DNA of 25,375 bases from a virus, in IMG/VR virus record IMGVR_UViG_3300048837_000497, positions 1 through 25,375 of that record. One strand, 5' to 3'. The position numbers and the translations under genes are program-made. The notes below the pieces were generated by a model that did not search any database, was not told where the DNA came from, and worked only from the letters and a program-made list of their open reading frames with translations. Below, in pieces: positions 1-24,192 of the stretch. Numbering within the stretch: the stretch's first letter is position 1; each line of letters begins with the position of its first letter.

Positions 1-1
1 C

Positions 2-1585: not shown

Positions 1586-1827
1586 CACAAATAACGCTCA
1601 CCTATTACCGCACTGCACCGCCCGAAAAAGCAACCGGGGTTAAGCATGTGCTTTGGGAGATTACCACTGATAAAGGTGCAAAGGTCTATGATTGGGGGTT
1701 CAGCGAATGGAATGGAACTGAATGGAGCGCGGTTGATGTTCCGGAAGGCTATACCGCTACAGTGTTTGCATGGGCGCATACAGTTAATCCCTCCTATGTT
1801 ACCTCTCCTCTTATGCATATTAATTAG
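1582..1827 (+). CDS. Hypothetical protein, 81 aa
   Basis: The gene starts with an ATG overlapping the stop of the GT7 gene. It encodes a small protein rich in beta-strand-like and aromatic residues (ITLTYYRTAPP, VYDWGFSEWNG, ATVFAWAHTV), compatible with a compact beta sandwich such as a small phage decoration or accessory structural protein, but I recognise no family. Its TAG stop supplies the first base of the following tRNA gene, so no spacer separates the gene from the tRNA. Function unknown. Confidence 0.65.
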   Translation: MTQITLTYYRTAPPEKATGVKHVLWEITTDKGAKVYDWGFSEWNGTEWSAVDVPEGYTATVFAWAHTVNPSYVTSPLMHIN

Positions 1828-1897
1828 CGCAGTTGGATGAGTGGTCAGTCACCGGTCTGCAAAACCGGGTACAGAGGTTCGATCCCGCTACTGCGCC
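1827..1897 (+). tRNA. tRNA-Cys (anticodon GCA)
   Basis: A cloverleaf can be drawn by eye. The 7-bp acceptor stem GCGCAGT/ACTGCGC is perfect. The anticodon stem CCGGT/ACCGG closes the loop CTGCAAA with anticodon GCA. The variable loop has 4 nt. The T-arm AGAGG-TTCGATC-CCGCT has one A-G mismatch. The D-arm is short (GAT/GTC) with GG in its loop. The CCA end is not encoded. The base at the discriminator position is C, whereas bacterial tRNA-Cys normally has U there. The gene begins on the last base of the preceding stop codon, and its 3' end overlaps the final codons and stop of the convergent MuF gene. Confidence 0.85.
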
Positions 1898-2841: not shown

Positions 2842-4573
2842 CCGGTATTGGCGGTATTAATGATTGAGTAGCTGCATCCATCTGCGCCTGACCTTTGGCA
2901 TAGATAATCTCACGCTGCCGGTTAATAGGAAGGTCTTTAAAATTAGCGTTCTCGATCATCGCCTCATTGACAAATTTATTGATGTTGCTGGACACAACAT
3001 AGTCAAGCTGAGTGATACCGTTGTTGCTGAGACGGCTCATCTTGTCATCTTCGCTGATGCCTCCAAGTGGGTCAAGGGAAAGGACAAGGTTCACATGCTC
3101 GGCAATTTCCAGGTCATTATTAAACGCCTTCGTAGCATAAGCCACCTCCATCGCCGTGATGATAGCAGGTGATAGCTTGTTATTTTTCGCCGACGTTATC
3201 TGCTCGTCGAAATACTTTGTAGAAAGTATATCGTATTTCTCAGGCACGGCCACCATTGGCAACATTTCGATGATCTGCTCCGTGGTGTACTGCACCGAAT
3301 AACGGTAGCGTGCAGTCAGGTAATAAACCTTATCAATAATCCGAACCAAGTCCTCGGCCACGGCATGAACGGTGGTGTTCAGCTCGTCCTTATCAACTTC
3401 CTTCGCGGTCCCGGATTGATTAAGGGGTGTAGCTGCCAAGAACTCGAAATTGATCGATGCCAAACCCTGCACGATATGATCGTTGATTGACTGCTCCTGC
3501 ACCTTGATAATTTCCACGTCCTTCTCCACAAACCCGGCGGGAGGGGTTGGCATTGCTAATTGTTCCGGTGACTGCGGCCTAACCAGTATCTTGCTGTAAG
3601 GTCCAGAAGCTACATACCCAGACCCCGCGCAGGTATTACACGTTACCTGGCAGGTTTCGTTATTCACCACCTCAGTACGCTTACCAGTCCCCTTACAATT
3701 GGTACATTCGTTCTGTGTGTACTCCCACCGCTCGGGGTACAGGTGCAGCACCTTCGCTGCCTGTAGGTCACTGTATTCGCGTAGGGCTTCGTTAAACTCG
3801 GGGATGATCCCTGCAATACGCGATTCGTATAGCGTATGCAGTCCGTAATTATCCACCACTACGCCGCCAAGTTGGAACGCAGGCAGCTCACCGAGTTGGT
3901 GGTTGTATTCAAACATCACGGCGAACTCCTTGCGCGAATTAATCTGATCGTACCGGTGAATATACTCGGTGGTAATCACATAGTAACTCTCCCCTTTCAC
4001 ATTACGCCCGTAAATCGCCCCTTTCTTGTTGCGGAGTACCGCGTAATCATCCTCCACAAAATCAATCACATCCTCGGAGTTAAATATAGTAACCACCGGG
4101 CGCGTATATTCGTTCTCCTGCTCAGGGAGTTCGACAGGAGCCACCACTGCGACAGCATTAGCATCAATCAGGTAATTTCGGAGCAGCACCGAGAAAGCCC
4201 AGTTGGTAACGCTGTCGAATGTGGGGTACTTCTTCTCTGCATAATCAAACATCTTCTCCCCATCAACAACCCGGTCAAAAGAACCGTTCGGGTATTTTAT
4301 CGACCAATCCGATGAGCGGCGTATCTTCTGGAGTGTTGATTCAATCTTAGTGGTGTATGGCTTCGTTTTAGGAATAAAAATCTTCTTCCGGTAATCCATC
4401 ACCTCCTCCGATTCATTCGGGCGGCGCTCGTCGATCAGTTCTTTCGGGTAGGTACCGTCGAAATGCACACGCATCTCGCGCTCCATCTTCACCGAATCTG
4501 AGCGGTAATAATGATTGCGACGGTCGTTGAAGTACTGCTTTAATTCGTCGGGTGTAAATTCAAGTTTCGGCAT
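2825..4573 (-). CDS. Phage portal protein with inserted DnaJ-type CxxCxGxG zinc motifs
   Basis: This 582 aa protein is assigned as the portal from its size, its position directly before a MuF gene, and its portal-like mixed alpha/beta body with a long helical C-terminal part. The portal forms the dodecameric ring at the capsid vertex through which DNA passes. Residues 290-319 hold two DnaJ-like zinc-binding motifs, CTNCKGTG (C290, C293) and CNTCAGSG (C312, C315), with an extra Cys308 between them. DnaJ itself has four such motifs binding two zincs; two motifs could form one zinc site. They follow a helix (EFNEALREYSDLQAAKVLHL, 259-278), which may place the knuckle at the stem/clip boundary. 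The start ATG is 3 nt after the stop of the glycosyltransferase gene. The portal call is from context and overall appearance; the zinc motifs are directly visible. Confidence 0.75.
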   Translation of the reverse strand: MPKLEFTPDELKQYFNDRRNHYYRSDSVKMEREMRVHFDGTYPKELIDERRPNESEEVMDYRKKIFIPKTKPYTTKIESTLQKIRRSSDWSIKYPNGSFDRVVDGEKMFDYAEKKYPTFDSVTNWAFSVLLRNYLIDANAVAVVAPVELPEQENEYTRPVVTIFNSEDVIDFVEDDYAVLRNKKGAIYGRNVKGESYYVITTEYIHRYDQINSRKEFAVMFEYNHQLGELPAFQLGGVVVDNYGLHTLYESRIAGIIPEFNEALREYSDLQAAKVLHLYPERWEYTQNECTNCKGTGKRTEVVNNETCQVTCNTCAGSGYVASGPYSKILVRPQSPEQLAMPTPPAGFVEKDVEIIKVQEQSINDHIVQGLASINFEFLAATPLNQSGTAKEVDKDELNTTVHAVAEDLVRIIDKVYYLTARYRYSVQYTTEQIIEMLPMVAVPEKYDILSTKYFDEQITSAKNNKLSPAIITAMEVAYATKAFNNDLEIAEHVNLVLSLDPLGGISEDDKMSRLSNNGITQLDYVVSSNINKFVNEAMIENANFKDLPINRQREIIYAKGQAQMDAATQSLIPPIPDEEDS

Positions 4574-4576
4574 GGC

Positions 4577-5407
4577 TTACATTTTTTGGCGGCCAGGAGC
4601 CCAGTTTTTTTTGCTCTGAATCTTATACAAAAATGGAGTTCCAAGCCGGTAGCATATTGCCGTCATAAATTTATCATGCTGTTTTTGCATGACAGACGGA
4701 ATAAAATTGCTTCCGAAACTTAGCAGGTAATAATCTTTACGAAGGTCGCGAATTTCCGGGTAACCTTTGTTAACTAATCTTGGCCAATATGCGGGCGTTA
4801 ACGCGCGCGGCCGTATATTCAACTGCGCCAGCGCAATATTGAAGTATAACTCATCCGGGGTCTGTCCGGCAAACTCACGAATAGAAAGCAGTTTACGCTC
4901 CGGTTTTGATGCCCGCGCCTTTTCAAAAACTTTTGTTCCTTTCTTCCAATAAATCACCTCACTGCGCGTCTGTGGCACCCATTCCACTTTATACCGGTTC
5001 ATGATCTCCTGTTCGGATGCCCAGAAATAATAGGCGGGATTAAACGCGTCGGTGCTACCCTCAGCTATCATCCAAAATTCATCTGCTGCGAATTGTTCAA
5101 AGAGTGCTGATACCGGCTGCTGGCTGATCCAGAGCATATCTGCATCGAAATATATCGTTTCGTCGAATGGGCTGAGTTGATCCAAATGCAGCTTCGCGCG
5201 CACGCCTGAAGCGTACCCGTCAGGCAGCGCAATCAGGTTGTCGAATACTGCACGCTCGGTAGGGCGAAGGCTCTTAATCCCATCCTCATCGTACACGAGC
5301 GCAATGCTGGCTGGACCGGCTGCCCGTATGGTAAGTGCCAGGTTATAGGCCATCTTTCCGTAATTGGCATGCCCCGTGGCTACTAATATGATTCCTTGTT
5401 TTATCAT
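4577..5407 (-). CDS. Glycosyltransferase, GT8-like (GT-A fold)
   Basis: This 276 aa protein starts as a nucleotide-sugar-binding GT-A fold (MIKQGIILVATGHANYGKMA). It carries the typical GT8-type block RAKLHLDQLSPFDETIYFDAD (residues 70-90), with the DxD metal-binding motif at D88/D90 and a preceding conserved Lys72. Family members transfer hexoses from UDP-sugars to proteins, lipids or glycans. An in-frame start 15 codons upstream exists, but the ATG at 5407 overlaps the stop of the tail gene (ATGA), matching the coupling used across the operon and the start of the fold. It lies between the last tail gene and the portal, inside the structural operon, so a virion protein is a reasonable acceptor, though this is inference. 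It is the third glycosyltransferase-like gene in the window. Confidence 0.75.
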   Translation of the reverse strand: MIKQGIILVATGHANYGKMAYNLALTIRAAGPASIALVYDEDGIKSLRPTERAVFDNLIALPDGYASGVRAKLHLDQLSPFDETIYFDADMLWISQQPVSALFEQFAADEFWMIAEGSTDAFNPAYYFWASEQEIMNRYKVEWVPQTRSEVIYWKKGTKVFEKARASKPERKLLSIREFAGQTPDELYFNIALAQLNIRPRALTPAYWPRLVNKGYPEIRDLRKDYYLLSFGSNFIPSVMQKQHDKFMTAICYRLGTPFLYKIQSKKNWAPGRQKM

Positions 5408-6642
5408 GGTATAACTGCTACGTCGGTTACAACTCCGTTTATCTCCCCGCAATAGGAAGGGAAGGAAACGGAGGTATTCTCATTGGCCACCGTGGCACCA
5501 ATCTCAAAAGTATATTCCACCTCCACGGTCGGGTCCATCGCGTCGTTACTGTACACAATTGTTATCTTACACCTTGCACCTGCCAGCACTGAATCGGCAG
5601 CAGCATCCGCCGTGCGTACTGCCGAAGTGGTGAACAGGTCGCATACCCCGGTGATACCAGAAGTAGGCTGATAGCTGTAATTATCCGGGTCAAGATGCGC
5701 CGTGGGTACATCGGTCGTGGCATTGATGCTGATCTCATCCGATATACTGTAAACGTTACATATCGACCATACACGCACCACATAGGCGGTATCAGGGTCA
5801 AGGCCGGTGATGACAATGCCTTCCGCGTACACTACACCCGATTGCAGCACCGTATTAGGGTCTGCCTGCGTGGCTATCTCCCATCCGTACTCGCCGACCG
5901 TTCCTGACCATGATACGGAAAGAGTAGATGCTGAAGCGTTAACCAGCACGCCATCCGTTGGGGCTTCACAGACTGCACCGCTACCGGTAACGGTCTGCAC
6001 ATAGATATTCGCCTCATCATAACTACCATCCGGGCAAGTCACCCGGTAAGTGGCCACCAATACATTACTGGCATTAGGCACAGGGTTATTAAGCGTCGCG
6101 CTGAAGGTGCCATCCGGGTTGATGCTGACCGATGAGAAAAAGAAAGTATTGAACGAGCGCAATGATACCGTCGAAGGATAGCAGCATACGGCATCGTTCA
6201 ATAGTACGCTCGCACCGTTATAGGTATTCCCTTCCTCCCACGTTTCTTCCACCGTGTCATTATTCGCCACCACCTGCGCCAATTCCTCACAGGTCTGGCA
6301 GTTGCTATTGGTTGCACTGAATGGCGTTATCTGCGCCGTAAACCGTGCCTGAGCCAAAGGATAATTTAGGAAGTCCTGCCATTCGATGCCGTAGTCTCCA
6401 TCCAATGCCACGCCTGTCAGTAGCCGGGTATCTTCAATCGTCACCTCATCATGGCTGAGCGCAACCACCAGTTTTTGGTGCCATTCCTCGGGCAATTGAT
6501 CCGTAACCCCTTCCACGGTCTTACTGATAACGACACTCAACACCTTGCGCTCGCCATTGGCTTTGCGGAAGATATTGCGCTCAATAGGGAACTGTGCTTT
6601 TCCCAGCGTGATCGGTAGTCGTATGCGGTTTTTGAAGGCCAT
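5404..6642 (-). CDS. Tail/baseplate protein with a fibronectin type III domain
   Basis: The 412 aa product has an N-terminal region (residues 1-110, including FPIERNIFRKANGE and EEWHQKLVVALSHDEV) of a kind I associate with Bacteroidota phage tail genes. A cysteine pair follows (CQTC, 115-118), then beta-rich repeats, then a fibronectin type III-like domain at about 226-311 (...LSVSWSGTVGEYGWEI...ITGLDPDTAYVVRVWSI...). The C-terminal 90 residues are beta-rich. FnIII domains are common in exposed tail proteins, where they bind carbohydrate or act as spacers. It is coupled by ATGA to the downstream glycosyltransferase and follows the upstream tail gene by one base. A structural role at the tail tip is likely; the exact component is unknown. 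Confidence 0.6.
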   Translation of the reverse strand: MAFKNRIRLPITLGKAQFPIERNIFRKANGERKVLSVVISKTVEGVTDQLPEEWHQKLVVALSHDEVTIEDTRLLTGVALDGDYGIEWQDFLNYPLAQARFTAQITPFSATNSNCQTCEELAQVVANNDTVEETWEEGNTYNGASVLLNDAVCCYPSTVSLRSFNTFFFSSVSINPDGTFSATLNNPVPNASNVLVATYRVTCPDGSYDEANIYVQTVTGSGAVCEAPTDGVLVNASASTLSVSWSGTVGEYGWEIATQADPNTVLQSGVVYAEGIVITGLDPDTAYVVRVWSICNVYSISDEISINATTDVPTAHLDPDNYSYQPTSGITGVCDLFTTSAVRTADAAADSVLAGARCKITIVYSNDAMDPTVEVEYTFEIGATVANENTSVSFPSYCGEINGVVTDVAVIP

Positions 6643-6643
6643 G

Positions 6644-7381
6644 TTATCTGATTACCACTACCCCTGAAGCCGTGCCACCAAAGTCAAGGTTTATGACCGT
6701 TGGCGGGTTCGCATCAAAGGATATAGTTATTCCAAAATTAGTTAAGTTCCCGGCACCGTCGTCAATCCAGGCCTGAACTGTAGGGAAGTTCCCGTATAGG
6801 TCGCGCATGGACGAAGTGTAGGGTATGGTCAACGTTGCAACATCTGTGAACGTGGCCAAGGTAGGTTCACAAGTTCCCGCCGGACTGGGTACTTCGCCGC
6901 CATTGCAATACTTGAATCCGAAACCATCCTCCTCGCTGCCGTATTCCACTACTGCCGTGTAGCAGTCCTCTGCTATACGTTGCAGGCAATTGCTGCACCA
7001 CTCAGCGCCTTCCACGGTCACGCGGATATAGAAACACTCCTCCACATCGATCACGCTGGTGAAGTTGGGCAGGCCATGCGCCCAATTAAATAGCACCTGA
7101 TATTCACCGATCAGAAACCGGTCGGGTAGCTCATCAAATACCAGTATATCCTCGCCATCGCACTCACGAACCAGCGACACGGTTGCCCCGGCAGTGTAGG
7201 GGTTACAAAGGGCGCTGATCTCCTCCGATGTGGTTCCCTGAACAATGAATTGAAACGCAATATCACCCTGCGCATATACCGGGAGGCAGAAATTAATATC
7301 GCCCCACAGGCAATGCGGAGGCGTAGCCGATTCGTTGAATTGAACGAATGAATTAGGGGGTGATATGATCGTTAAGGCCAT
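6644..7381 (-). CDS. Putative tail/virion protein with C-terminal appended beta domain
   Basis: This 245 aa protein is beta-rich and contains many Cys residues (e.g. EWCSNCLQRIAEDC). I do not recognise the main domain. Its last roughly 70 residues (from TFTDVATLTIPYTSSM to ASGVVVIR) form a separate module with the pattern T.PYT....PTV......G.......I......P......GG.A.G.V.I. The same pattern makes up almost the whole of the 71 aa protein encoded at 13561-13776. The start overlaps the end of the 707 aa tail gene by 10 nt. Position between two tail genes suggests a virion component, perhaps a tail-tip decoration; that is inference. Confidence 0.55.
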   Translation of the reverse strand: MALTIISPPNSFVQFNESATPPHCLWGDINFCLPVYAQGDIAFQFIVQGTTSEEISALCNPYTAGATVSLVRECDGEDILVFDELPDRFLIGEYQVLFNWAHGLPNFTSVIDVEECFYIRVTVEGAEWCSNCLQRIAEDCYTAVVEYGSEEDGFGFKYCNGGEVPSPAGTCEPTLATFTDVATLTIPYTSSMRDLYGNFPTVQAWIDDGAGNLTNFGITISFDANPPTVINLDFGGTASGVVVIR

Positions 7382-9495
7382 TTAGGAAGTAAATTGAAGG
7401 TTGCCTCACCACGTGCCGGCTGAAATTCAATGCTACGAATATACGCAGGAATAAATTCACCGTCGCCGCATTGCACAGAAATATATCCATACTTGTTCGC
7501 CTTTACAGCATTGTATTCAGCCACGCTCATCGGCGCATCGAATATAAGCAGATCGGTTGTGAGGATCGGGTCAGTCTCGCCCTTGAAAAATGTAGCATCA
7601 ATATCGCTATTCTCTCCCACGGGCTTACTTTCCAGGCTGCAATCATCGCTGATCATGCCCTTTGCCTCATAGTTACCCTGTCCGGCAGAAAACTGAAGGC
7701 TGCGGCCTATCCACCTGAACCAGCGCATCAGGTTATAGGCCGGACGTATGCGCCAGTTGTATGCAGTTGGTGGCGAGAAGAAACCCGATGCTGCCGATAA
7801 ACCGCCCTGCTCTACTTCGTAGTCAACATAGGCGCCCCGCTTAACTTGCACAATGAATATATCGTTGTCGTAGTTACTATCCTTGTCGCCGGAGTTCACC
7901 AGGGTGGTACTACGCAAGTCTTCGATGATATACCCGGAAGCAATAAACTTAGCCCGTATATTCAGCGCATTAGATACGGCCTTCACCTGCGTTCGGTACT
8001 CCTTCTGCGAGTTGAACTCATCAATGCCCTTGATGCTTCGCACCTCCCATTTCTCGTACCCTCCCTGTATGTTGCTGTATATCCTTGATTCATCAAGGCG
8101 GGTATTCACTTTCGGCAGGCTGTCGATCTGCATGATTTCACTGTCCCGGTAGAACCAATCTATCGGCTCCATGCGCAGGACATTATCTGATATATCGAAT
8201 CCAACCGCATCAATCGCACGCAGTCCTTCCATTAGTTCCTTTGGACTGGCAAAAAACTGCTTGTTTTCTGCCTGCCTGATCTTTAGTCCATTCATCAGCA
8301 CCCGCAGCGACCCGCAGCCATCTTCAGACGCCATGACCGGCAGGCTATCGGTACGACCGTAGTAGTCAGAGCGGAAGGTTAGGCATTTATCCGTCACAGA
8401 TTCAATGGCCCGTGCCAATGTTTCATTCACCATATACGCCTGCACGTCCGTCGGTGGGCATGACTTAGTATTGCTGATGTTCCAGGAAGTTGCGCGCTCA
8501 AAGTTGTACTCGATCTCCATATCAGGGATAACCCCAACTCCTCCTGTTATTTCAACCAGAATATAGGCATACAGCCCTTCGCCCTCATTAAGCTGAAGGG
8601 TGCTGCTGTAGGTTTCATCAAAAGCGTATGGCGTGCCTGAACTGGCTCCGCTCACAATAACATCGCTGTGAATCGTTGTACGTGTAGGATCAACCCCATT
8701 CCACCTATCCACAATCAGGGTAATATCTACCCCTAACGCGCCGAATGTTCCCGATACCGTTACCGTACCTTTCATTCGAATGTTATACTGGAAGTCGTCA
8801 AACGTACAGGCTTGTATATCTTCAAAAAGCAATTGTGGTGTGAGGAAAAAGAAAGCATCCGGGTCTTGAAAAAAATTAGCCACCTGATCGAGATTTCCGG
8901 TCATGATAGAGTTATCAATGACATTCCCATAAACAGGCCGTATTAGAATTTGATCCCCCGGGGTAAGTAACCCCGGCGGTTCCAACGTCGTCCCATCGCC
9001 CGCCTCCACAACATACGCCTCACCGGAGATAGGGATCTCCTGCGTGGCCAATTGCATCTGGAAACCCAGCGCAGCATAATTCGTAAGCGCCTCACCGCCT
9101 ACTGACACAGGACTATCAATATCGATCTTCTGATCCCACCGGCTGGTAAATAGCGTAGCGCATCCCTCCTGCTCGACGTTCATGCGGATGATGCACTCGT
9201 CGCCACAGGATTCGTCGTAGCTGCGGAAGTTGAGGCGCCCACTGATACCCTCCTGGTAATCCTGCTGCCCGTCACATTTGACCTCAGCGACAAACTCGGC
9301 CACTGCATCTACACCGTCAGCCTCTTTGAGTGCTTTGAGTATCGTGAATGCCTCCCCGTAGAAACCAAGTGTCGATGTGGTAGCCTCAAAGATAACTCCG
9401 TGCCAGTTCGGATCGCGGGTAATACGGAAAGTAATATCGGCGAAGCCTAAAGGTTCGTCGATCTCAGTGCCATTTATGTAGAATCTCCAGAGCAT
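7372..9495 (-). CDS. Large tail protein, likely tail hub/baseplate component
   Basis: The 707 aa protein is encoded directly after the tape measure gene, with an ATGA overlap. In long-tailed phages this position is normally occupied by distal tail or tail-hub proteins that close the tube and start the baseplate. The N-terminus (MLWRFYINGTEIDEPLGFADITFRITRD) resembles the beginning of a Dit-like beta domain. The middle (about 120-330) is beta-rich, and the C-terminal half (ATSWNISNTKSCPPTDVQ onward) looks like a hub or adaptor. I see no peptidase or lysozyme motif. The assignment depends on order and length, not a diagnostic motif, so which tail component it is remains open. Confidence 0.6.
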   Translation of the reverse strand: MLWRFYINGTEIDEPLGFADITFRITRDPNWHGVIFEATTSTLGFYGEAFTILKALKEADGVDAVAEFVAEVKCDGQQDYQEGISGRLNFRSYDESCGDECIIRMNVEQEGCATLFTSRWDQKIDIDSPVSVGGEALTNYAALGFQMQLATQEIPISGEAYVVEAGDGTTLEPPGLLTPGDQILIRPVYGNVIDNSIMTGNLDQVANFFQDPDAFFFLTPQLLFEDIQACTFDDFQYNIRMKGTVTVSGTFGALGVDITLIVDRWNGVDPTRTTIHSDVIVSGASSGTPYAFDETYSSTLQLNEGEGLYAYILVEITGGVGVIPDMEIEYNFERATSWNISNTKSCPPTDVQAYMVNETLARAIESVTDKCLTFRSDYYGRTDSLPVMASEDGCGSLRVLMNGLKIRQAENKQFFASPKELMEGLRAIDAVGFDISDNVLRMEPIDWFYRDSEIMQIDSLPKVNTRLDESRIYSNIQGGYEKWEVRSIKGIDEFNSQKEYRTQVKAVSNALNIRAKFIASGYIIEDLRSTTLVNSGDKDSNYDNDIFIVQVKRGAYVDYEVEQGGLSAASGFFSPPTAYNWRIRPAYNLMRWFRWIGRSLQFSAGQGNYEAKGMISDDCSLESKPVGENSDIDATFFKGETDPILTTDLLIFDAPMSVAEYNAVKANKYGYISVQCGDGEFIPAYIRSIEFQPARGEATFNLLPKWP

Positions 9496-12236
9496 CAGAG
9501 GCTATACCATTTGTCGTAATAACGATTCTTTGCCAGCCCGTTGGCCACCGATTCTTCGATAAAATCTTTGTCAATATTCACGCTGAAATTGCTGGCAGGG
9601 ATGGCCTTCGCCAGCCGGTCGTAATCAATCCGCTCAACGGGTTGCCCATGTTGTACTGTTACAGCCGCCTTCTCGTTGTGCAGCATCCTACGCGTCTCGG
9701 CGGCCGTGTACACCTTATCGGTGCGACTTAGGTAGGTCTCCGTCGGCTTCGTGTACAGATACATCCGGCCGCCACGCTCCACTAATTCAGCACCCATATC
9801 CGCCACCATACCACGGCCTTCGTAGCTGTCGCGCTTACCTCTGAAGAACTTAGGCACGGGTCGGGCTGCTATGATAGCTGCCTGCGCTGCCGCAAGGCCG
9901 GCATAGATGGCGCCAAGTATCGGGCCTCCTGTAGTAAGGCCTTGGAGGTAAGCCTCTGGTATAGCCAGCACAGCGCGGAAGATAGCCTCACGTTTCTCCC
10001 TTTCGGCCTGCGCCTGCTTGGCCTTCTTCTCCAATATCTCAATCTCTTTGGCGCGCTTCTCAGCTTCCTTCTGGCTGATGGCACCCGCCTCAATCAATGC
10101 CTCCAGTTGCGTACGCTGCGCCTCGATCTGCTGGTTCTCGCGCTCGCTGGTAAGGGCGGATAGGTTGGCGAAGAAGTCGGCCACTTGCCCGGCTATCTCC
10201 AAAGCCACCTGAGCGGCCTGCCTGAGCGCCTCTTCCCTTTTCTCAGCTTCCTCCTTGTAAATATCCTCTCGCCGGTCAGCCGCCGCCTGCTCTACTTGGG
10301 TGATCTCGTCAATAATCGCACGGCGTTTATTTAGGTAGTCCTCATCGGATTGTTCCAGTTGCTCGTTGGCCTGTAGTTGGGCATATAACCCGCGTAGGGA
10401 GGCTTCAGTAATCTTATCCAGTGCTGCCACCCGCTCATCGACTGACCGGTTGGCATCCGAAACGATACGCTCCTGTATGCGGGATATAGCCGCAGCATTG
10501 CGCTGCTCTGTGGCCAGTGTAACCGCCAGACCACGCTCTATCTCTGCATTACGCGCCCGCGATATATCGGCATCGCGCTTCGCATTGATAGCCGCTATCT
10601 TCTCCGCATTACCTTCGGCGGCATTAACCTCCTGCTGCGCGGCCAGTTGTATCTGTTGTATTTGCAGATCCAGCCGCTCGGCATAGCTAAGGCGTATGTT
10701 TTCCAACGCTGCCGCATTGCCATCAATGGCGGCCTGCAATTCCTTATCGCGTAGCGAGCGGAAGTAGGCCTCATCCAAATCCTGTCGTTCCTTGATCGCT
10801 TGGGCGCGTATAAGATTTGCCTGTTCTTGCGTAACACCCTCCTGCGCAAGTTCTACATCACGCTTGGCCAGTGCCAGTTTCTTCCGCAATTCCAATTCGG
10901 CCTGCGTGCCGGCTTCAACCGAAAGCAGTTGCCGCTCGATAAAAAACACCACATCCTGCAACTCGCGAATACGGGCATCGCGGGCGTCCTTCAAGGCTTT
11001 ATCCCGGCGCTCTTTGGCATCTTTGGCGGCTGTTTCGGCTTCGTCTTTGACAGCCTTTTGGCCTTGCAGGTTCAATATCTCTATCTGGTTGGCAAGCTTC
11101 GCCCTCCGGTCGATATTATCCTCAATCGCGTCATTCAGCGCAAACCACTGGGCAGATGTAGCGTCCACCGCGTCTCGCTCGGCCTTCAACCGGTCAAGGG
11201 TGGCAGTGAGGAGATTATATTGAACTACTAACCCCTGCACCTGTATGCGCTGCAAATCGCTTTCGGCCTTCCCTAACAGATTCGCGCGGGCAACGGCCAG
11301 ATTAGTTTGCCTTTCAAGTAGTGATATGGAACTATCGAGCGCGGTATTGTAATCATCAATCCTTTTATTCACCTCCTCCAGGCTATCGCTCTGATCGTCG
11401 AGCGCACTCACTAATGCCAATACTGCCACCACGGCAACCCCGATACCGGTGGCAGCCAATGCCACCTTGAACGCAACCGTGGCAGCCGTAGATTTACCCG
11501 TGGCCAGCGTGTATAACTTCTGAACCGCTACCTGCGCATTAGTCGCCACCACATCGGCCAATTTCGTGAGTGCGCCTTCCTTTTGCGTGGCATTGAGAAC
11601 CTGCTGGATGCCGGTGGATATAGCCATTGCGGCGTTTACCTTCAGTAGTGCTTTCTGTAAGTCCTCGCTCTCATCCCCAAACAAGGCGGCGGCACCCTGA
11701 ACGGCGGAGAACGCACCGGCCGCAGCACCAATAGAGCCGACAAGATTATCTACATTGCGCGTATCACTGGCCACATTGGCAACCTCGGCATTAGCATCTG
11801 CGACCGCATCAGCCATAGCCCCGGCCTCATCCCGCAGCCGCCTGAACTCCTCGGTATTATCCTTACCTTCCAGTTTCAACTGTGCCAATTGCTCGCGCAG
11901 TTCGCGCATCCTTGTTCGGAAACTTACCGCCGGCTGATTGGCCTGCTGCAAAGCGGCCGCAAACTCCTCCGCACTCACCCCGGCCTCATCAAGTGCATCC
12001 TGAACGCCCTGACCAAAGGCATTTTCCACCGACTTGCCCAGTTGCGTGGCAGTAGTAGCAACTCGCTTAAACTCTGCAATTAAACCTTTGGTGTCTTGCG
12101 TTCCCGCCTTAAGTTTCAGATTGAATTGATCGAGCATTTTGCTGTCGATCTTGCCGGCCTTCGCCAGTTGCTCCTGAGCCGTTACCAGCTCCTCGTCATT
12201 TACCCGGAAGTTTATGAGTACATCCTGCGTGGCCAT
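9495..12236 (-). CDS. Tape measure protein
   Basis: This 913 aa protein is among the largest in the window. It is dominated by long Ala/Glu/Lys/Gln-rich coiled-coil stretches (about 390-740), with hydrophobic segments at about 165-190 (GSIGAAAGAFSAVQGAAALF) and about 250-275 (ALAATGIGVAVVAVLALVSA), and a Gly/Ala-rich hydrophobic stretch near the C-terminus followed by a basic region (PKFFRGKRDSYEGRG). This is the standard make-up of tape measure proteins, which set tail length and travel to the host membrane during DNA ejection. It follows the frameshifted tail chaperone directly, as in lambda-like tail operons, and its stop overlaps the start of the next tail gene. At roughly 1.5 angstrom per residue a tail of somewhat over 100 nm would be expected, implying a siphovirus- or myovirus-like virion; no sheath gene is seen. 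Confidence 0.9.
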   Translation of the reverse strand: MATQDVLINFRVNDEELVTAQEQLAKAGKIDSKMLDQFNLKLKAGTQDTKGLIAEFKRVATTATQLGKSVENAFGQGVQDALDEAGVSAEEFAAALQQANQPAVSFRTRMRELREQLAQLKLEGKDNTEEFRRLRDEAGAMADAVADANAEVANVASDTRNVDNLVGSIGAAAGAFSAVQGAAALFGDESEDLQKALLKVNAAMAISTGIQQVLNATQKEGALTKLADVVATNAQVAVQKLYTLATGKSTAATVAFKVALAATGIGVAVVAVLALVSALDDQSDSLEEVNKRIDDYNTALDSSISLLERQTNLAVARANLLGKAESDLQRIQVQGLVVQYNLLTATLDRLKAERDAVDATSAQWFALNDAIEDNIDRRAKLANQIEILNLQGQKAVKDEAETAAKDAKERRDKALKDARDARIRELQDVVFFIERQLLSVEAGTQAELELRKKLALAKRDVELAQEGVTQEQANLIRAQAIKERQDLDEAYFRSLRDKELQAAIDGNAAALENIRLSYAERLDLQIQQIQLAAQQEVNAAEGNAEKIAAINAKRDADISRARNAEIERGLAVTLATEQRNAAAISRIQERIVSDANRSVDERVAALDKITEASLRGLYAQLQANEQLEQSDEDYLNKRRAIIDEITQVEQAAADRREDIYKEEAEKREEALRQAAQVALEIAGQVADFFANLSALTSERENQQIEAQRTQLEALIEAGAISQKEAEKRAKEIEILEKKAKQAQAEREKREAIFRAVLAIPEAYLQGLTTGGPILGAIYAGLAAAQAAIIAARPVPKFFRGKRDSYEGRGMVADMGAELVERGGRMYLYTKPTETYLSRTDKVYTAAETRRMLHNEKAAVTVQHGQPVERIDYDRLAKAIPASNFSVNIDKDFIEESVANGLAKNRYYDKWYSL

Positions 12237-12521
12237 TTATTTGCGGGACCGTTTTTTTGAGGCCTTAACGGCCTGTACGCGGCTGTTCAAAAGTAAGTAA
12301 TAATTCAATATCGGCGTCGCCTCTAATTTGGCGATCCGGTCGGGATCGTAATCTGCCAGCCCGCATAGCTGGTTGAACCGGTCATTTACCTGCCTTCCGA
12401 CAATATATCGGTATGAAGCCGACGGTGTGTTTCGTCGATCATTTTTGTTACCGTCAAATAGGTCTGGGTATCGCGCTCGGGCAGCTTTAAAGACGGAATC
12501 AATTCTACTAACGGCGTCTTT
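12237..12521 (-). CDS. Tail assembly chaperone, -1 frameshift extension (lambda gpT-like position)
   Basis: This frame is open for about 98 codons, from a stop near 12531 to the TAA at 12237-12239, next to the tape measure start. It contains no ATG or GTG start and only a late TTG. The sequence after the stop of the upstream frame (QVNDRFNQLCGLADYDPDRI...LEATPILNYYLLLNSRVQ) looks like real protein. It lies in the -1 frame relative to the 202 aa gene upstream, and a U-UUU-UUA slippery heptamer sits at 12527-12521. I therefore read it as the C-terminal extension added by programmed -1 frameshifting, as for gpG/gpGT of lambda, where the long form bridges the tail tube protein and tape measure. 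The overlap with the zero frame is about 140 nt, longer than in lambda. Initiation at a rare start codon is the alternative. Confidence 0.7.
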   Translation of the reverse strand, partial: KDAVSRIDSVFKAARARYPDLFDGNKNDRRNTPSASYRYIVGRQVNDRFNQLCGLADYDPDRIAKLEATPILNYYLLLNSRVQAVKASKKRSRK

Positions 12522-12994
12522 AAAAAAAAATCAAGCGTCCCCCCGGCCGCTTTCCATCTTGCTATTTTTTGCGCATTGTAATCGTAGTCGTAAGCGTATA
12601 GCGATTCGGAAGCATCGAAGAATATCACGCTTGCCAGCTTGTAAATGAAATCCGGCATCGGCATTAGTTCCAGCCGCTCCTTTAGATTGATGTTGAGTTG
12701 AGCGATATACTGAATGGATATTTTCTTCGGGTCGCTCAGCAGCTTCTCCATCGCCTTCGTGTGCGCTTCCAGGTACTTCTTATCGCAGTTCATCTCCATT
12801 TCCGCGTATATGCCCATTGCTGCAAAGAACCTACCTGTCGGCACCTCCGTTGTCGATTCAAACATGAAGTAGTCCGTGCCGCCGATACTGAAGGCAGGAA
12901 TTACTTTGTACTTGCCATCGACAAGGTAAGGTTTAATTGATGGCTTAAAGATTCTTCGGATACGCTCAATCCAAGACTGTTTACGTAGCTGCAT
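12386..12994 (-). CDS. Tail assembly chaperone (lambda gpG-like position)
   Basis: This 202 aa protein precedes the tape measure gene and carries a -1 slippery sequence within its last quarter, both typical of the short form of a tail assembly chaperone. Recognisable segments are YFMFESTTEVPTGRFFAAMG (about 43-62) and KLASVIFFDASESLYAYDYD (about 122-141), a pattern I associate with this gene slot in Bacteroidota phages. Translation in the zero frame passes through GAT-TTT-TTT-TTA-AAG and ends about 45 codons later at TAA 12386-12388. The start at 12994 is chosen from the frame; the first roughly 30 residues overlap the end of the upstream small gene, so a later start is possible. No Shine-Dalgarno sequence is visible. 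Confidence 0.75.
   Translation of the reverse strand: MQLRKQSWIERIRRIFKPSIKPYLVDGKYKVIPAFSIGGTDYFMFESTTEVPTGRFFAAMGIYAEMEMNCDKKYLEAHTKAMEKLLSDPKKISIQYIAQLNINLKERLELMPMPDFIYKLASVIFFDASESLYAYDYDYNAQKIARWKAAGGTLDFFLKTPLVELIPSLKLPERDTQTYLTVTKMIDETHRRLHTDILSEGR
12486..12530 (-). promoter_or_regulatory. Programmed -1 ribosomal frameshift signal (slippery run plus stem-loop)
   Basis: On the minus strand a run of nine T is read GAT TTT TTT TTA AAG in the zero frame, giving the canonical X XXY YYZ heptamer T TTT TTA (12527-12521). A perfect 10-bp inverted repeat, TTTAAAGACG/CGTCTTTAAA, pairs 12524-12515 with 12495-12486 across a 19-nt loop. The part that remains after the ribosome covers the slip site is a stem of about 7 bp (AAAGACG/CGTCTTT), which could act as the stimulatory structure, although it starts closer to the slip site than usual. 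The shift continues as AAA GAC GCC into the extension frame. Confidence 0.75.
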
Positions 12995-13155
12995 AATGTA
13001 TGAATGGGTTGATATTTGGCAAGGTATGAATTATCGTGTTTTAAGTGAAATAACCCTTTACGACGCATCAGGTAGATGATATAGCGCCCGTGCTGGTACT
13101 TCTCATTGCGCACCCCGTTGCAGTTGCAGTGGCCTATGTAGGTGAATTCAGTCAT
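12901..13155 (-). CDS. Hypothetical protein, 84 aa
   Basis: The ATG at 13155 overlaps the TGA of the preceding 50 aa gene (ATGA), which favours it over the in-frame ATG eight codons upstream. The product begins MTEFTYIGHCNCNGVRNEKY and contains a basic segment (YIIYLMRRKGLFHLKH). A CNC cluster near the N-terminus is notable but not enough for a metal-site call. Its 3' end overlaps the start of the tail chaperone frame by about 94 nt, which is long; either that overlap is real or the chaperone begins later. Function unknown. Confidence 0.55.
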   Translation of the reverse strand: MTEFTYIGHCNCNGVRNEKYQHGRYIIYLMRRKGLFHLKHDNSYLAKYQPIHTLCSYVNSLGLSVSEESLSHQLNLTLSMASTK

Positions 13156-15698: not shown

Positions 15699-15935
15699 AC
15701 CGTAAAATTAAGGGTTTCACGTGGAACTTACCAAACCATGCCCTAAATCGGGTCAATTCCCACTTTTCTACTTTTTTTACCAATCGCCTATCCCCTCCTT
15801 ATATTTATCTATTTATACTCTTTTTTTATTTTATTTTTTAACTGTAAAGTAAAGTAAAAAAGTGGGAATAAGAGAATAATAGATAGTATTTTTATTGATA
15901 ACCAATTAGTTGATAATTCCCACTTTAAATATACG
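15699..15935. repeat. AT-rich non-coding gap with repeated AATTCCCACTTT motif (origin, packaging or control site candidate)
   Basis: No gene fits this 237-bp stretch. The 12-mer AATTCCCACTTT occurs exactly at 15755-15766 and 15915-15926, and in inverted form as AAAGTGGGAAT at 15859-15869. Near copies lie in flanking genes: TTCCCACTTTT at 16331-16341 (end of the primase-helicase gene) and AATTCCAACTTT at 15945-15956 (end of the GIY-YIG gene). Between the copies are long T/A tracts (15769-15860), including a tandem GTAAA run (about 15844-15859). Repeated short sites around an AT-rich core are typical of iteron origins, but also of operator or packaging sites. It lies between the replication genes and the terminase genes. 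I found no Bacteroidota-type -7 box here. Confidence 0.5.
15713..15728. promoter_or_regulatory. parS-like near-palindrome GGTTTCACGTGGAACT
   Basis: This 16-bp site matches the bacterial ParB-binding parS consensus TGTTTCACGTGAAACA at 13 of 16 positions by eye, including the central TTTCACGTG. It lies 15 bp before the terS start codon. No ParB gene is in the window. Chance, a terminase-binding site or a regulator site are other explanations. Confidence 0.3.
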
Positions 15936-16309: not shown

Positions 16310-18823
16310 TCAAAACGGCAATTGATCCTGTTCCCACTTTTGGGGGTCATCGCTTCCCAGTTTTTCCTCCTGCTTTTTGGCTAAAAAGTCGGAATCCCAT
16401 TTAACGATCCGGTACATACGGGTGCCGTCTGATTGGCGCTTATAGGAGCTGTCAATTTCGACGCCCCGAGCCTCTGCCCATTTGTTCATCCACTGGGTTA
16501 CCCGTGTGGTGGTAAGGTTCTTGTAGTTGCACATTTTGGCGATCTTATGGCTAAAATCATCCTTAGAGTACACGAAATAATTAAGCGGGTTTTCCGGGTT
16601 TTTCAGGTACATCTCAACATTCACGGCATTGGTTACATAGGTGCCATCCGGCATATACACAGCCAGGTTTTTAAGCCCGTGAGGGGCGAAGTCGAAGAAG
16701 TTAACGGATAGCTGCCCATCCATATATTCAACGAATTCCCGGCTTGTATTGGATATAAGAGAGCGTTCAGCAGAACGGTCGGTAATGGCACCTATTGAAC
16801 GCTTATCGCCTTCCTGAAGGTATTTTTGAGCGCAGGCAATCATGAAGTTGTCAAACTTCAACCACTCTGATCTGTCCCAACCGGAAAAGAACTGTCGGCC
16901 AAATACCTGTATAGGCTCTATATCCTCGCCAAAATATTTAACCACAGGGAACTCATATTTTCGCCGACGGCTTGAAATATCCATGTTGCCGATGCTGTAA
17001 TTGGACGTGAAAACAATCTTAGGGGACTGCTCATAGGGAATAATAACCTGATCCCGGTTCTTTTTATTAATCAGGATGGGGCCGGTTAATATGCTATACA
17101 TGGAGGTGAACTTGAAGTTTTTCTCCACGTCGTCAATGAATATGATAGCAGTGTCCGGATCAACGTTTTGAAATAAAAACGGATCAGAGAAGCGGAAATT
17201 TTTACCGTCGAAGTCGGCTGTTTTTCGGAATTGTTTGATGAAGTTTACGCATAAACCCTTACCACTACCACCTTGGGATTCGCCCTCAGCTTCCGGGTCA
17301 ATATCCTCCATCAGCACAACGGCCCGTGGGTTTATCGGGTCTTTATATTTACTCAGCAGGTAGCCTAAAATCTTCTGTAGGGATGCTGATTTGTCGCCAC
17401 CTAATATGTTGATAAACCGCTCAGCGTCGCATCCCGAATAATCGCAGCCGTAGTATTCACGGTCAATAATATCGGATTGCCAAATATAACCAGACATGGT
17501 TTTGTAGTCAACCGGATCGATGGATTCAGGAGTTATTTTTGTGGCTATGTTTTGAAAGAAAAGCCAAGTGGTGTCTTTGTCGTCTTTGATAAAGTTGTCG
17601 CCCAATTCTTCCAGCATTGCCATTAAGCCGCCTTTGTCGCTGAATATGGTGGCGACTTTCTCATACATTTCATCCTTAACCTCAAACTCCACTTCATTAA
17701 GAAATGCCCGCTTCAGGTCAGCCTCCTTTACTATCTCAACGGTATTATTTATCACTCTTACAAGTTCGCCCTTGTATTTACGGTAGCCCACGCCGTGAAA
17801 CCAGTTGAGAAGTTCGGTATATTTTATCTTAATCTTTGACTTCTCTTTAAACCAAAATACGCCCTCATTGTAAACATTAACCCCACAACCTTCAGAAGCC
17901 AGTTGCTTGCTGGCTGCGGCAACGTCGCCGTCATGGTTAAAAAGGCAATACACGCCGAAAGGGGTGTAGCCCTTCTCGTTCTCAAATTCCGTTGAAGGGG
18001 TAAAAAGATAAAGGATATTCGATTCTTTGAATATTACCCCTGAGTATTTCTGTTTGGTGTCCCCTGGACGGCGCACATAAATCTTATCGTTATCATCTTT
18101 GTAAACGATCCAGTTTCGATCAACCAGTTCACCAGAGATATACTTCCAATCATGGGTAGAATTAAATACACTCCACGGCGAATCCTCTCGCAGCGATTCC
18201 TTTTTCTTAACCTCTGGTATTACCACTTCGTTGAATGATGCGCAAACGGCAGATATGAAATTGCGCTCTTCGGCGGAAAGAAAAGGAATCTCAAACGGGT
18301 TTTTTTGCCTCAGCTCGTAGCCTTGTGATGGTGAAATTTTTATGTATTGTTTGTTCTGCCGGCTGATGCGCTCAATGATGGCAAGGGGGTTGTTTTTCCC
18401 ATGGACCTTAGCCAAAACAGGTTTCCCTCCGGTTACTTCTGAGCGGTAAATAAGGTGGCAGCCGCCGGACGGGGTAAAGTCAATGACAAGTTTATCGTAA
18501 AGATCAGGCCAGCCCGACCTGATTGCTTTAAGTACGGCTTCGGTTATACCGGGCTTGTTCTTTGCGTCAACATCAATGAACTCCATGTTGTGATCCATGA
18601 TGATACCCAAGTCCACATCCCTGTCCTTAAAGTAGAAATTGAAGTTGTGCTCGTTTATTGGCCGGGCTATGATGCTGTAAACGGATTTAATGTTTGCCGG
18701 TTCTTTATCTCCTTTCTTTAATGGGATAACCTGAAAGCCATTATTCATCAAATCCTTTGCGGCGAGGTAAACATGTGATTCGTCAAGCTCCTCGCCTGGC
18801 TGGTGGAATTCGTAGAAATTCAT
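16310..18823 (-). CDS. Primase-helicase: prim-pol-like N-terminus and SF3/P4-type helicase C-terminus
   Basis: This 837 aa replication protein has two parts. The N-terminus shows archaeo-eukaryotic primase/prim-pol signatures: GIIMDHNMEFIDVDAKN (catalytic acidic pair D84/D86) and FTPSGGCHLIYR (116-127, the sGGxH motif). A linker segment FGVYCLFNHDGDVAAASKQL (289-308) is typical of such fusions. The C-terminal ATPase has Walker A GGSGKG (518-523), Walker B AIIFIDD (559-565) and sensor FTSN (605-608), as in SF3/P4-like phage helicases. It should unwind the origin and prime DNA synthesis. The ATG at 18823 overlaps the stop of the preceding gene. No DNA polymerase gene is in the window, so the phage either uses the host polymerase or encodes one elsewhere. 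Confidence 0.9.
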   Translation of the reverse strand: MNFYEFHQPGEELDESHVYLAAKDLMNNGFQVIPLKKGDKEPANIKSVYSIIARPINEHNFNFYFKDRDVDLGIIMDHNMEFIDVDAKNKPGITEAVLKAIRSGWPDLYDKLVIDFTPSGGCHLIYRSEVTGGKPVLAKVHGKNNPLAIIERISRQNKQYIKISPSQGYELRQKNPFEIPFLSAEERNFISAVCASFNEVVIPEVKKKESLREDSPWSVFNSTHDWKYISGELVDRNWIVYKDDNDKIYVRRPGDTKQKYSGVIFKESNILYLFTPSTEFENEKGYTPFGVYCLFNHDGDVAAASKQLASEGCGVNVYNEGVFWFKEKSKIKIKYTELLNWFHGVGYRKYKGELVRVINNTVEIVKEADLKRAFLNEVEFEVKDEMYEKVATIFSDKGGLMAMLEELGDNFIKDDKDTTWLFFQNIATKITPESIDPVDYKTMSGYIWQSDIIDREYYGCDYSGCDAERFINILGGDKSASLQKILGYLLSKYKDPINPRAVVLMEDIDPEAEGESQGGSGKGLCVNFIKQFRKTADFDGKNFRFSDPFLFQNVDPDTAIIFIDDVEKNFKFTSMYSILTGPILINKKNRDQVIIPYEQSPKIVFTSNYSIGNMDISSRRRKYEFPVVKYFGEDIEPIQVFGRQFFSGWDRSEWLKFDNFMIACAQKYLQEGDKRSIGAITDRSAERSLISNTSREFVEYMDGQLSVNFFDFAPHGLKNLAVYMPDGTYVTNAVNVEMYLKNPENPLNYFVYSKDDFSHKIAKMCNYKNLTTTRVTQWMNKWAEARGVEIDSSYKRQSDGTRMYRIVKWDSDFLAKKQEEKLGSDDPQKWEQDQLPF

Positions 18824-21986: not shown

Positions 21987-22217
21987 CTATATGTCTCGAA
22001 ACTTCTGCTCATGTTTGAATTTTTTCTCGTCCTCCAATAGCTCAGCCTGCCGCTCAGGCGTCAGGGTTGCCCACCACGCTTCGTAGGCGGCATCCTGTTC
22101 GCGCTCCCACTGCCGGCGGTTAACCGGCCTACGGAAGAACCGGGGACCGGATCTGGCCAGCCCCTCGGTTAACTGCGGCTCGATTTGCGCGTCGAGCCAC
22201 GCTTGGTAGGCGCTCAT
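21987..22217 (-). CDS. Hypothetical protein, 76 aa
   Basis: The start ATG overlaps the TGA of the RecT-like gene. The product (MSAYQAWLDAQIEPQLTEGL...) is helical, rich in Arg, Glu and Trp, and ends with a lysine-rich tail (DEKKFKHEQKFRDI). A partner role in recombination or nucleic-acid binding is only suggested by coupling and charge. No family recognised. Confidence 0.65.
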   Translation of the reverse strand: MSAYQAWLDAQIEPQLTEGLARSGPRFFRRPVNRRQWEREQDAAYEAWWATLTPERQAELLEDEKKFKHEQKFRDI

Positions 22218-22900
22218 GCGGAGACGGGGGTTTGAACCTCCTTAAGGCGGTTAACAATGCGTGTCCAGCCGGCTTGGTTAGTAGCCTCGCTCAGCTTCAC
22301 GGAGGCGGCGTCGCGCTTCTCCTGATCAAGCGTGGAGTTGTTGAGCAGTTCATTGGCCTCAGCCCATTGCTCGTCGGTGGGTTTCCAAGCTGTTTCAACT
22401 GATACCGGTGTGGCATCTTCGGTAACGGTTGCCATTTCTTCGGGGACATATACCGGGCCGGAGAATACGTCGGGCGTGAACCATTTAACGCCGTTGCTCA
22501 TAGCGCGTGCGAAAAGCATATTACGGGCGAACTTATCAAGGTTCTTTGTACCGGCTTTCTTTGCATCTTCAATCGTGAAGGTGCTGGTTCCGATCTTGTC
22601 CTTGCCCTGGTAGAATTCAATAATACAGGCTTTCTCATCCTGCTGGAGAACCCGGTAGTCGTACTTGCCAGAGCCTTTGACTGCTGCGGCCATGATGCCG
22701 GCGCCAATGGTGGGCTTGCCCTGAATGATGTGAATGCCAGACATGGCGGCAAAAGGCGGGATGCCAATTTCAGAACCTGCCTGGATTTTTACAATAGCCT
22801 GCGCGGCTGATTTGATGTCAGGAAACATACCTGATTCATGGAACTGCTTACCCAATGCTATCGCTTCGGTTGCAGACACTTTCATGATTTCGTGTGACAT
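22214..22900 (-). CDS. RecT-like single-strand annealing recombinase (phage type)
   Basis: This 228 aa protein contains AQAIVKIQAGSEIGIPPFAA (about 34-53), SGIHIIQGKPTIGAGIMAAA and ARNMLFARAMSNGVKWFTPD, a set of segments I associate with phage RecT-family annealing proteins that promote pairing of complementary single strands. Central residues are well ordered; the C-terminal 60 residues are acidic, helical and more variable. It works naturally with the SSB and PD-(D/E)XK nuclease of the same operon, although no RecE-type exonuclease was recognised. The start MSHEIMKV is fixed by the frame; a long structured non-coding stretch lies upstream. Assignment rests on remembered family pattern, not an alignment. 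Confidence 0.75.
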   Translation of the reverse strand: MSHEIMKVSATEAIALGKQFHESGMFPDIKSAAQAIVKIQAGSEIGIPPFAAMSGIHIIQGKPTIGAGIMAAAVKGSGKYDYRVLQQDEKACIIEFYQGKDKIGTSTFTIEDAKKAGTKNLDKFARNMLFARAMSNGVKWFTPDVFSGPVYVPEEMATVTEDATPVSVETAWKPTDEQWAEANELLNNSTLDQEKRDAASVKLSEATNQAGWTRIVNRLKEVQTPVSA

Positions 22901-22918
22901 AGTGATTGATTTGATTAG

Positions 22919-22957
22919 CCCCCTGTCCGGTTCGACCGACGCCGTGAGCGCAGGGGG
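22919..22957 (-). promoter_or_regulatory. Hairpin just upstream of the RecT-like gene
   Basis: CCCCCTG (22919-22925) is complementary to CAGGGGG (22951-22957), 7 bp. The interior contains CGGT-TCG-ACCG (22928-22938), a nested hairpin. It lies 18 nt upstream of the RecT-like start codon and could control its translation or terminate the upstream structured RNA. Confidence 0.45.
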
Positions 22958-23077
22958 TGATTAAAGCGGCAGGCTACCAGTGGATTTTCGCCACGTTCCC
23001 GCGCTTTAGTTCAAAGAGTGCCGGTTAACGTACCGGCGGACGGATGCGGAAGCTAAGAGGCCGCCTCAACCTCGGCT

Positions 23078-23200
23078 ATTGTGCTTTGTGTTGGCAGGGG
23101 CTTTCACCCTACTTTCGGCCGGGGACACCCCAACCCATGATGGCTTGCAAGGAGGTTTTGCCTTTCAGCAAACCCTCCGAGCCACAACACATTGCACAAT
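23078..23200 (-). ncRNA. Candidate structured RNA, three-way-junction-like, no known family recognised
   Basis: The 363-nt gap 22901-23263 has no convincing gene. Within it, 23181-23200 pairs with 23078-23095: on the minus strand ATTGTGC, a 2x2 A-rich internal loop, TGTGTTG, a 2-nt bulge, then GC, about 16 pairs closing an 85-nt interior. Inside are GGAGGGTTTGC/GCAAAACCTCC (23178-23151, 10 of 11 pairs, loop TGAAAG) and GGGG-TGT-CCCC (23131-23121) or an alternative GGG-TGAAAG-CCC hairpin. Beyond the closing helix follow GCCGGT/ACCGGC (23037-23020) and the 22919-22957 hairpin. The neighbouring genes are all on the minus strand, and the purine-rich loops also favour that strand. Whether it is transcribed as a separate RNA, a leader of the RecT-like gene or a DNA structure is open. 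Confidence 0.5.
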
Positions 23201-23263
23201 GATTTCAAACATCCCCCTTACGCCTCGACAGGCCAGGGGTACATTAACCAAAACCATAACAAA

Positions 23264-23437
23264 CTATCTTTTCCAGTTCACCCGCCAGACGGCGACAGTT
23301 GAATCCGAAGGAATGAGTGTCCATTCAGGCGGGTAATTATCCCAATACAAAAAAGAGACAGCATTAATATAATAAAAATTTTGTTGAAATATAAATTTTG
23401 TCGATAACGACATTCCAACATGTTTAATCTCTTTCAT
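23264..23437 (-). CDS. Hypothetical protein, 57 aa
   Basis: The frame starts with ATG 2 nt after the stop of the 45 aa membrane protein and ends with TAG. The product (MKEIKHVGMSLSTKFIFQQN...YWDNYPPEWTLIPSDSTVAV) has a coherent composition with many aromatic residues and reads as real protein. No family recognised. It is the last gene before the structured non-coding stretch. Confidence 0.55.
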   Translation of the reverse strand: MKEIKHVGMSLSTKFIFQQNFYYINAVSFLYWDNYPPEWTLIPSDSTVAVWRVNWKR

Positions 23438-23439
23438 AG

Positions 23440-23577
23440 TCAATTCAAATTTATATCATCCCACCCCTCTCTGGTTGCGTCGGGCAGCCTGTCCACGCCG
23501 GTCGCCTTTCGTAGCATCCGGGGTACGACGAAAATAACGATGAAGAGCAGTGGCACCGCGATCAAGATAATCAACAT
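23440..23577 (-). CDS. Small single-pass membrane protein, 45 aa
   Basis: The product MLIILIAVPLLFIVIFVVPR followed by MLRKATGVDRLPDATREGWDD is an N-terminal hydrophobic helix (residues 1-18), a positively charged turn (R20, R23, K24) and a short acidic cytoplasmic tail. It is compatible with a single-pass inner membrane protein, tail inside. Small phage membrane proteins of this size can be holin-like, spanin-like or superinfection-exclusion proteins; nothing here decides. The frame is tightly followed by the 57 aa gene. Confidence 0.65.
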   Translation of the reverse strand: MLIILIAVPLLFIVIFVVPRMLRKATGVDRLPDATREGWDDINLN

Positions 23578-23880: not shown

Positions 23881-23912
23881 TGAAGGTAATACCGTATTAC
23901 TCACTTTCCAAG
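23881..23912 (-). promoter_or_regulatory. Bacteroidota-type promoter with palindromic operator (site 1, leftward operon)
   Basis: Minus strand: CTTG (-33) at 23912-23909, a 20-nt spacer, then TACCTTCA (-7, imperfect TAnnTTTG) at 23888-23881. The perfect 15-bp palindrome GTAATACCGTATTAC (23886-23900) begins in the spacer 8 nt after the -33 box and overlaps the first bases of the -7 box. It lies directly at the stop codon of the ribbon-helix-helix gene and upstream of the 79 aa gene. Confidence 0.7.
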
Positions 23913-24097: not shown

Positions 24098-24129
24098 CAA
24101 ATATAATACGGTATTACGTAATAAGCAAA
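24098..24129 (-). promoter_or_regulatory. Promoter of the ribbon-helix-helix regulator with operator (site 2)
   Basis: Minus strand: TTTG (-33) at 24129-24126, a 20-nt spacer, TATATTTG (-7, matching TAnnTTTG) at 24105-24098. Operator TAATACGGTATTA (24104-24116, 6+1+6 palindrome) overlaps the -7 box by two bases. A second perfect palindrome TATTACGTAATA overlaps it. Expected transcription start about 24091, only a few nt upstream of the ATG at 24083. Confidence 0.8.
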
Positions 24130-24160: not shown

Positions 24161-24192
24161 TTTGGAATGTTGGTAATACCGTATTATCTTTG
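24161..24192 (+). promoter_or_regulatory. Divergent rightward promoter with operator (site 3)
   Basis: Plus strand: TTTG (-33) at 24161-24164, a 20-nt spacer, TATCTTTG (-7, matching TAnnTTTG) at 24185-24192. Operator TAATACCGTATTA (24174-24186) has exactly the same position relative to the boxes as in sites 1 and 2. The transcript would begin near 24199 and read the plus-strand genes from 24245. Confidence 0.8.

Follow-up and report, generated by a model that had tools for sequence, protein, structure and literature searches.

Location and composition of the gap

The window analysed here is the whole stretch of 25,375 bases of IMG/VR record IMGVR_UViG_3300048837_000497, and it carries a tailed-phage gene set, with genes for terminase, portal, tape measure, primase, SSB and a RecT-like annealing protein. 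The style of its promoters suggests a host in the Bacteroidota, and the phage is probably temperate. Two head-to-head Bacteroidota-type promoters (TTG-N17..23-TAnnTTTG) were found at 24162-24192 on the plus strand and at 24128-24098 on the minus strand, and the palindrome TAATACsGTATTA was present in three copies (at 23887-23899, 24104 and 24174), an arrangement that looks like the lysogeny switch of a temperate phage with its operators. The minus-strand promoter (24098-24128, TTG-N20-TATATTTG), which overlaps the operator-like palindrome at 24104-24116, is the likely promoter of the early operon. On this strand lie a small gene of 59 aa (23264-23443) and the gene of the RecT-like single-strand annealing protein (recT, 22214-22900; phrog_4171, E 8.5e-17; phrog_561, E 3.3e-13), with ssb and the primase gene further downstream in the same operon. 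Elsewhere in the window, a tRNA-Cys (GCA) was present on the plus strand at 1827-1898, its first base being the last base of the plus-strand ORF 1582-1827.

The region between the 59-aa gene and recT (22901-23263, 363 nt) held no minus-strand ORF of at least 40 aa, in agreement with an earlier sequence-only reading that had described it as a gap without a gene. Two ORFs on the plus strand (52 and 85 aa) had no credible protein relatives, and neither did any other gap frame that was tested; a conserved protein, which the earlier reading had named as a point against an RNA, was thus not found in these frames. That reading had also called the gap richer in GC than the flanking genes. With a GC content of 0.548, as compared with 0.486 for the window, the gap exceeded the upstream gene (0.356) and, slightly, recT (0.523), so that the claim holds weakly for its two neighbours, but not for the genes 3' of recT (0.578); 12% of all 363-nt tiles equalled or surpassed the gap.

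Folding the gap against shuffled sequence, as the sequence-only reading had proposed, gave -147.5 kcal/mol on the minus strand (z -3.56) and -133 kcal/mol on the plus strand (z -3.27), and on neither strand did any of 100 shuffles reach so low an energy. In 190-nt tiles, a core insert scored z -4.2 on the minus strand as against -2.9 on the plus strand and ranked second among 267 minus-strand tiles. Two tiles of coding DNA, at 16626 (z -4.6) and 21661 (z -4.1), folded comparably, so the folding energy is supportive and not decisive. The first of these, the best minus-strand tile (16626-16815), lies inside the primase gene and contains a 16-nt inverted repeat at 16632/16800. A minus-strand RNA is favoured both by where the gap lies, within the early operon, and by the fact that this strand folds better. 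Such an RNA would suit the phage regulatory RNA or the recombinase leader that the sequence-only reading had put forward as possibilities, and the gap would be transcribed as part of the early message.

Predicted structure of the minus strand

Read 5' to 3' on the minus strand, the gap consists of hairpin A, a TTTGAA repeat, a core formed by a closing helix (P1) and three arms, hairpins E and F, a second TTTGAA, hairpins C and D, and then recT. The segment from 23016 to 23206 (191 nt), which we named module B, carries the core together with E and F, and is bordered by the two exact copies of TTTGAA, at 23204-23209 on its 5' side and at 23010-23015 on its 3' side.

P1 pairs UUGUGC-AAU-GUGUUG (23185-23199) with CAACAC-AAA-GCACAA (23079-23093), giving 6 bp, a small symmetric internal loop and a further 6 bp; the long helix with a symmetric internal loop noted earlier was thus recovered at this place. 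Taken as arms of 16 nt separated by 91 nt, 14 of the 16 positions are paired. Eight arm pairs of comparable quality were observed across the whole window where composition-matched shuffles gave about one, others of equal quality lying for example in the operator region and at 15699-15935, which makes the P1 pair unlikely to be due to chance, yet not unique in this genome. The latter site is an AT-rich gap (GC 0.29) that separates minus-strand genes 3' of the primase gene; it contains a long inverted repeat, nearly perfect (15 of 16 positions), whose arms lie at about 15756 and 15869.

Inside P1, arm 1 (23141-23184, -20.2 kcal/mol) appeared in both the minimum-energy and the centroid folds, and consists of a UGGCU/AGCCA stem that carries an inner hairpin. 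The latter (23151-23178), which had been noticed from the letters alone, is made of two stems of 5 bp separated by a small internal loop and is closed by UGAAAG. Arm 2 (23117-23135, -12.2 kcal/mol) is an 8-bp hairpin, GGUUGGGG-UGU-CCCCGGCC, and includes two U.G pairs that are possible in minus-strand RNA only, so that it fits a minus-strand transcript. Arm 3 (23098-23109) is predicted to fold as the hairpin GGGUGAAAGCCC, again with a UGAAAG loop. The two minus-strand loops that had been read as TGAAAG therefore stand, starting at 23167 and 23106, and a third GAAAG starts at 23116.

Towards recT the sequence-only reading had counted three more hairpins; such hairpins are present, but there are four of them. 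Hairpins E (23052-23076, predicted fold) and F (23020-23037, GCCGGU/ACCGGC, -9.7 kcal/mol) belong to module B, while C (22963-23007) and D (22919-22957, -18.8 kcal/mol) lie beyond it. Hairpin D ends 18 nt 5' of the recT start codon, and the stretch between it and the start at 22900 is unstructured. At the other end of the gap, hairpin A (23214-23239, -13.7 kcal/mol) stands directly 3' of the 59-aa gene. Two longer-range interactions were considered and set aside: a helix in the minimum-energy fold that would close A on D brought an energy gain (z -0.57) that is ordinary for two shuffled hairpins, and 23238-23249 is complementary to hairpin F over 12 nt, a possible switch, but by our estimate about 0.4 such matches are expected by chance.

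Comparison with the closest relative

A search based on recT yielded 80 loci, only one of which shared the region: a 37.3-kb record (L002) whose recT is 96% identical and which is the closest relative of the phage in the window. The two are syntenic at 85-93% identity, and the C-terminus of the 59-aa protein is similar in both. In the structural half (within 1-13155) runs identical to L002 reach 1,265 nt (e.g. 6341-7605), as compared with an identity of only 85-88% in the early half, which indicates, from the pattern of identity, recent recombination between both phages. At the site of the AT-rich gap 15699-15935, L002 has a different, GC-richer sequence.

Hairpins A, C and D are retained in L002, and module B is missing: by BLAST, the adjacent positions 4498/4499 of L002 correspond to 23015 and 23207 of the window, and a single TTTGAA stands at the joined site. 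An empty site with a target repeat is what a miniature element would leave, and a repeat-mediated deletion in L002 would look alike; since target-duplicating insertion and short-repeat deletion leave the same trace, gain of module B in the window and its loss from L002 cannot be told apart. In addition, L002 carries an ORF of about 121 aa (4571-4936) between hairpins C and D that is missing from the window. It is flanked on both sides by TAACTAA, and had no Pfam family above the cut-off and no relatives among the other loci fetched. On the simplest reading of these two differences, the locus would be a series of interchangeable modules between short repeats. The earlier reading had taken the gap as one RNA; its call of an unassigned structured RNA is supported, but the comparison with L002 shows the gap to be modular, its most elaborate part being the one that is missing from L002.

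The region of hairpin A (23207-23306) was 85.7% identical to L002 by BLAST, with identical runs of 23 and 11 nt, hairpin A itself being nearly identical, while every base of hairpin D was identical, within a run of 41 nt (22919-22959). Neighbouring coding DNA is identical over stretches as long as 81 and 100 nt, so the identity of A and D does not point to special constraint. Hairpin C was 84.9% identical, and in an alignment of just these two sequences its stem persists in each phage, some of the pairs that form it being different; this retention of a stem despite differing sides is suggestive but anecdotal. The placement of C and D in L002, the former just 5' of where the extra ORF begins and the latter ahead of recT, suggests that both are cistron-border hairpins. 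Because L002 lacks module B, recT of that phage family does not depend on the module, whose absence from the other recT loci as well argues that recT expression in general can proceed without it.

Searches for homologues

No RNA family had been recognised in the gap by the sequence-only reading, and searching Rfam 15 on both strands gave no match to the gap at the gathering score; extending the search to E≤10 returned nothing but MIR2119 (E 6) and rli62 (E 6.1), chance matches that both lie outside the core. A known ribozyme or riboswitch is therefore unsupported, tmRNA, introns, GOLLD, ROOL and HEARO being among the families searched. A retron RNA is likewise unsupported, as RVT_1 (PF00078) was unmatched in the window and in the whole L002 record when controls matched.

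At the DNA level, the gap had no similarity in phage and plasmid records. Exact patterns of hairpins A, C and D matched only the contig of L002 in IMG/VR, and those of module B had no true match, in scans that may omit records very near the window. A loop-only pattern had one match in IMG/VR, in protein-coding DNA (QueC-like, by our reading), and the same degenerate pattern gave 12 matches in 84,980 species genomes, nearly all in open frames and none with the fold, as expected by chance. A covariance model of the core, run in 788 Bacteroidota genome searches and on 40 phage records, recovered the window only; it was built on one sequence, which makes this blank result weak for distant homologues. 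When the gap was run by BLASTN in 791 Bacteroidota genome searches, a single 30-nt match came back, which lies in apparent protein-coding DNA (AsmA-like, by our reading), was not matched by the covariance model and is attributed to chance. These amount to about 1,580 Bacteroidota genome searches, in which some genomes were possibly counted more than once.

Nothing resembling the core was present at the other recT loci or in the 40 phage records, and the literature on structured RNAs and recT leaders, judged by titles and abstracts, held no matching element. Module B thus has a single known copy and one partial relative, L002, and on present evidence the core would qualify as an orphan.

A proposed structured segment of the early message

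In operons as tightly packed as those of early phage genes, 363 structured non-coding bases that come and go as a module would not be worth their space unless they had a function. Our tentative preference is for a non-coding, structured and independently folding RNA segment of the early mRNA before recT, gained and lost as a cassette and acting in cis. Transcription would start at the repressible promoter at 24128-24098, and the transcript would cross four small genes, then the gap, and then recT, ssb and the primase gene. Hairpins A, C and D would be mRNA hairpins at cistron borders, C (before the ORF of L002) and D (before recT in both phages) each leading through an unstructured, A/U-rich stretch to an AUG. 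Between A and C, module B would form a cassette open to gain and loss, composed of the branched core with its closing helix and three arms, and of E and F. This folded block may divide the message between its proximal small genes and the part that carries recT and, by 5'-end protection, processing or partial attenuation, could set the amount of recombination protein.

Several observations support a function in cis: the lack of a minus-strand ORF and of protein relatives in the tested frames, a fold that beats every shuffle and is strongest in the operon's sense direction, the presence upstream of a same-strand Bacteroidota-type promoter with none of full consensus in the gap, and the retention of A, C and D in L002 with module B precisely missing. 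Like a leader of recT, the gap immediately precedes that gene in the sense orientation, with no ORF between and the operon promoter upstream. The absence of module B from L002 and the other recT loci weakens the case, and so do the ordinary conservation of A and D relative to neighbouring genes, the coding tiles that fold equally well and an A-D pairing no stronger than that of two shuffled hairpins. Conservation with recT across relatives, as a leader of that gene would show, was found for hairpin D alone, kept in the same place in L002.

It is possible, though somewhat unlikely, that module B is instead a trans-acting phage RNA, stable and about 124-190 nt long, which has a host protein or RNA as its binding partner and is either cut out of the early operon or transcribed within it, recT being merely a neighbour. 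The closed, branched core with its repeated GAAAG motifs and UGAAAG loops resembles a self-contained domain, and the module comes or goes whole, like an accessory gene cassette. Against this reading, neither a full-consensus Bacteroidota promoter in or beside module B nor a terminator-like site on its 3' side was found, and it had no relatives in anything searched. That it represents a new class, an accessory phage RNA cassette of about 190 nt that comes and goes whole among the early genes and acts in trans against some host component (for instance a defence system, RNA polymerase or the ribosome), is in our judgement quite improbable.

We consider it unlikely that module B is a functionless foreign or relic insertion, either a miniature mobile element or captured DNA, whose hairpins are left over. 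Its precise absence from L002, together with the 6-bp repeat at both borders (from target-site duplication or repeat-mediated deletion), fits such an origin, as does the TAACTAA-bounded ORF of L002, which marks the region as one that gains and loses modules. However, neither a second copy (in the window, the L002 genome or the Bacteroidota genome searches) nor terminal inverted repeats were found, as a miniature mobile element would have, and a decaying relic is not expected to hold the second-best folding score of the minus strand.

The sequence-only reading had also offered a structured origin. That the structure acts as DNA, as a replication origin or single-strand initiation site, is very improbable: it adjoins recT, and ssb and the primase gene lie further along the same operon, but no iterons or strong direct repeats were found at 22890-23460, the G.U pairs belong to minus-strand RNA, which folds better than the plus strand, and L002, a phage that must itself replicate, has no such core. 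We give almost no credence to the gap being a small-protein gene or the remnant of a lost one, a view that the additional ORF of L002 might suggest, the window having one gene fewer, and that is largely refuted by the position of this ORF between C and D, outside module B, and by the lack of credible protein relatives in any tested frame of the gap.

Returning to the preferred reading, a structured segment acting in cis on the early message, the RNA would be a new leader setting the level of the recombinase if it is expressed; on the trans-acting alternative it would be an accessory phage RNA gene. Module B is a credible but unproven new phage RNA and may be termed a candidate orphan RNA, now known in single copy, whose value depends on homologues or expression.

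Comparison with known systems

GOLLD and ROOL are ornate, protein-free RNAs that are often found in phage genomes and are much larger than module B. Both, known as large ornate RNAs (PMC12286853), are in Rfam, yet the gap was unmatched. Comparative genomics of bacteria and metagenomes yielded 104 candidate structured RNAs (PMC2864571), and the orphan RNAs among them resemble the core of module B in being non-coding, intergenic, stably branched and carried by phage or environmental genomes. They were defined there by structure-preserving mutations among many homologues, whereas the core is single-copy.

Miniature hairpin elements of the REP/IS200 type are, like module B, short, structured, non-coding inserts that are missing from a relative; unlike them, the module was found in one copy and lacks terminal inverted repeats. 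An IS200-type insertion is not known to produce a 6-bp direct repeat like the TTTGAA at its borders. Structured mRNA leaders and intercistronic hairpins differ from the gap in that it matches no known riboswitch family and its main structure is missing from L002, but they share with it a position directly 5' of a gene on the sense strand and, after the last hairpin, an unstructured start-codon region.
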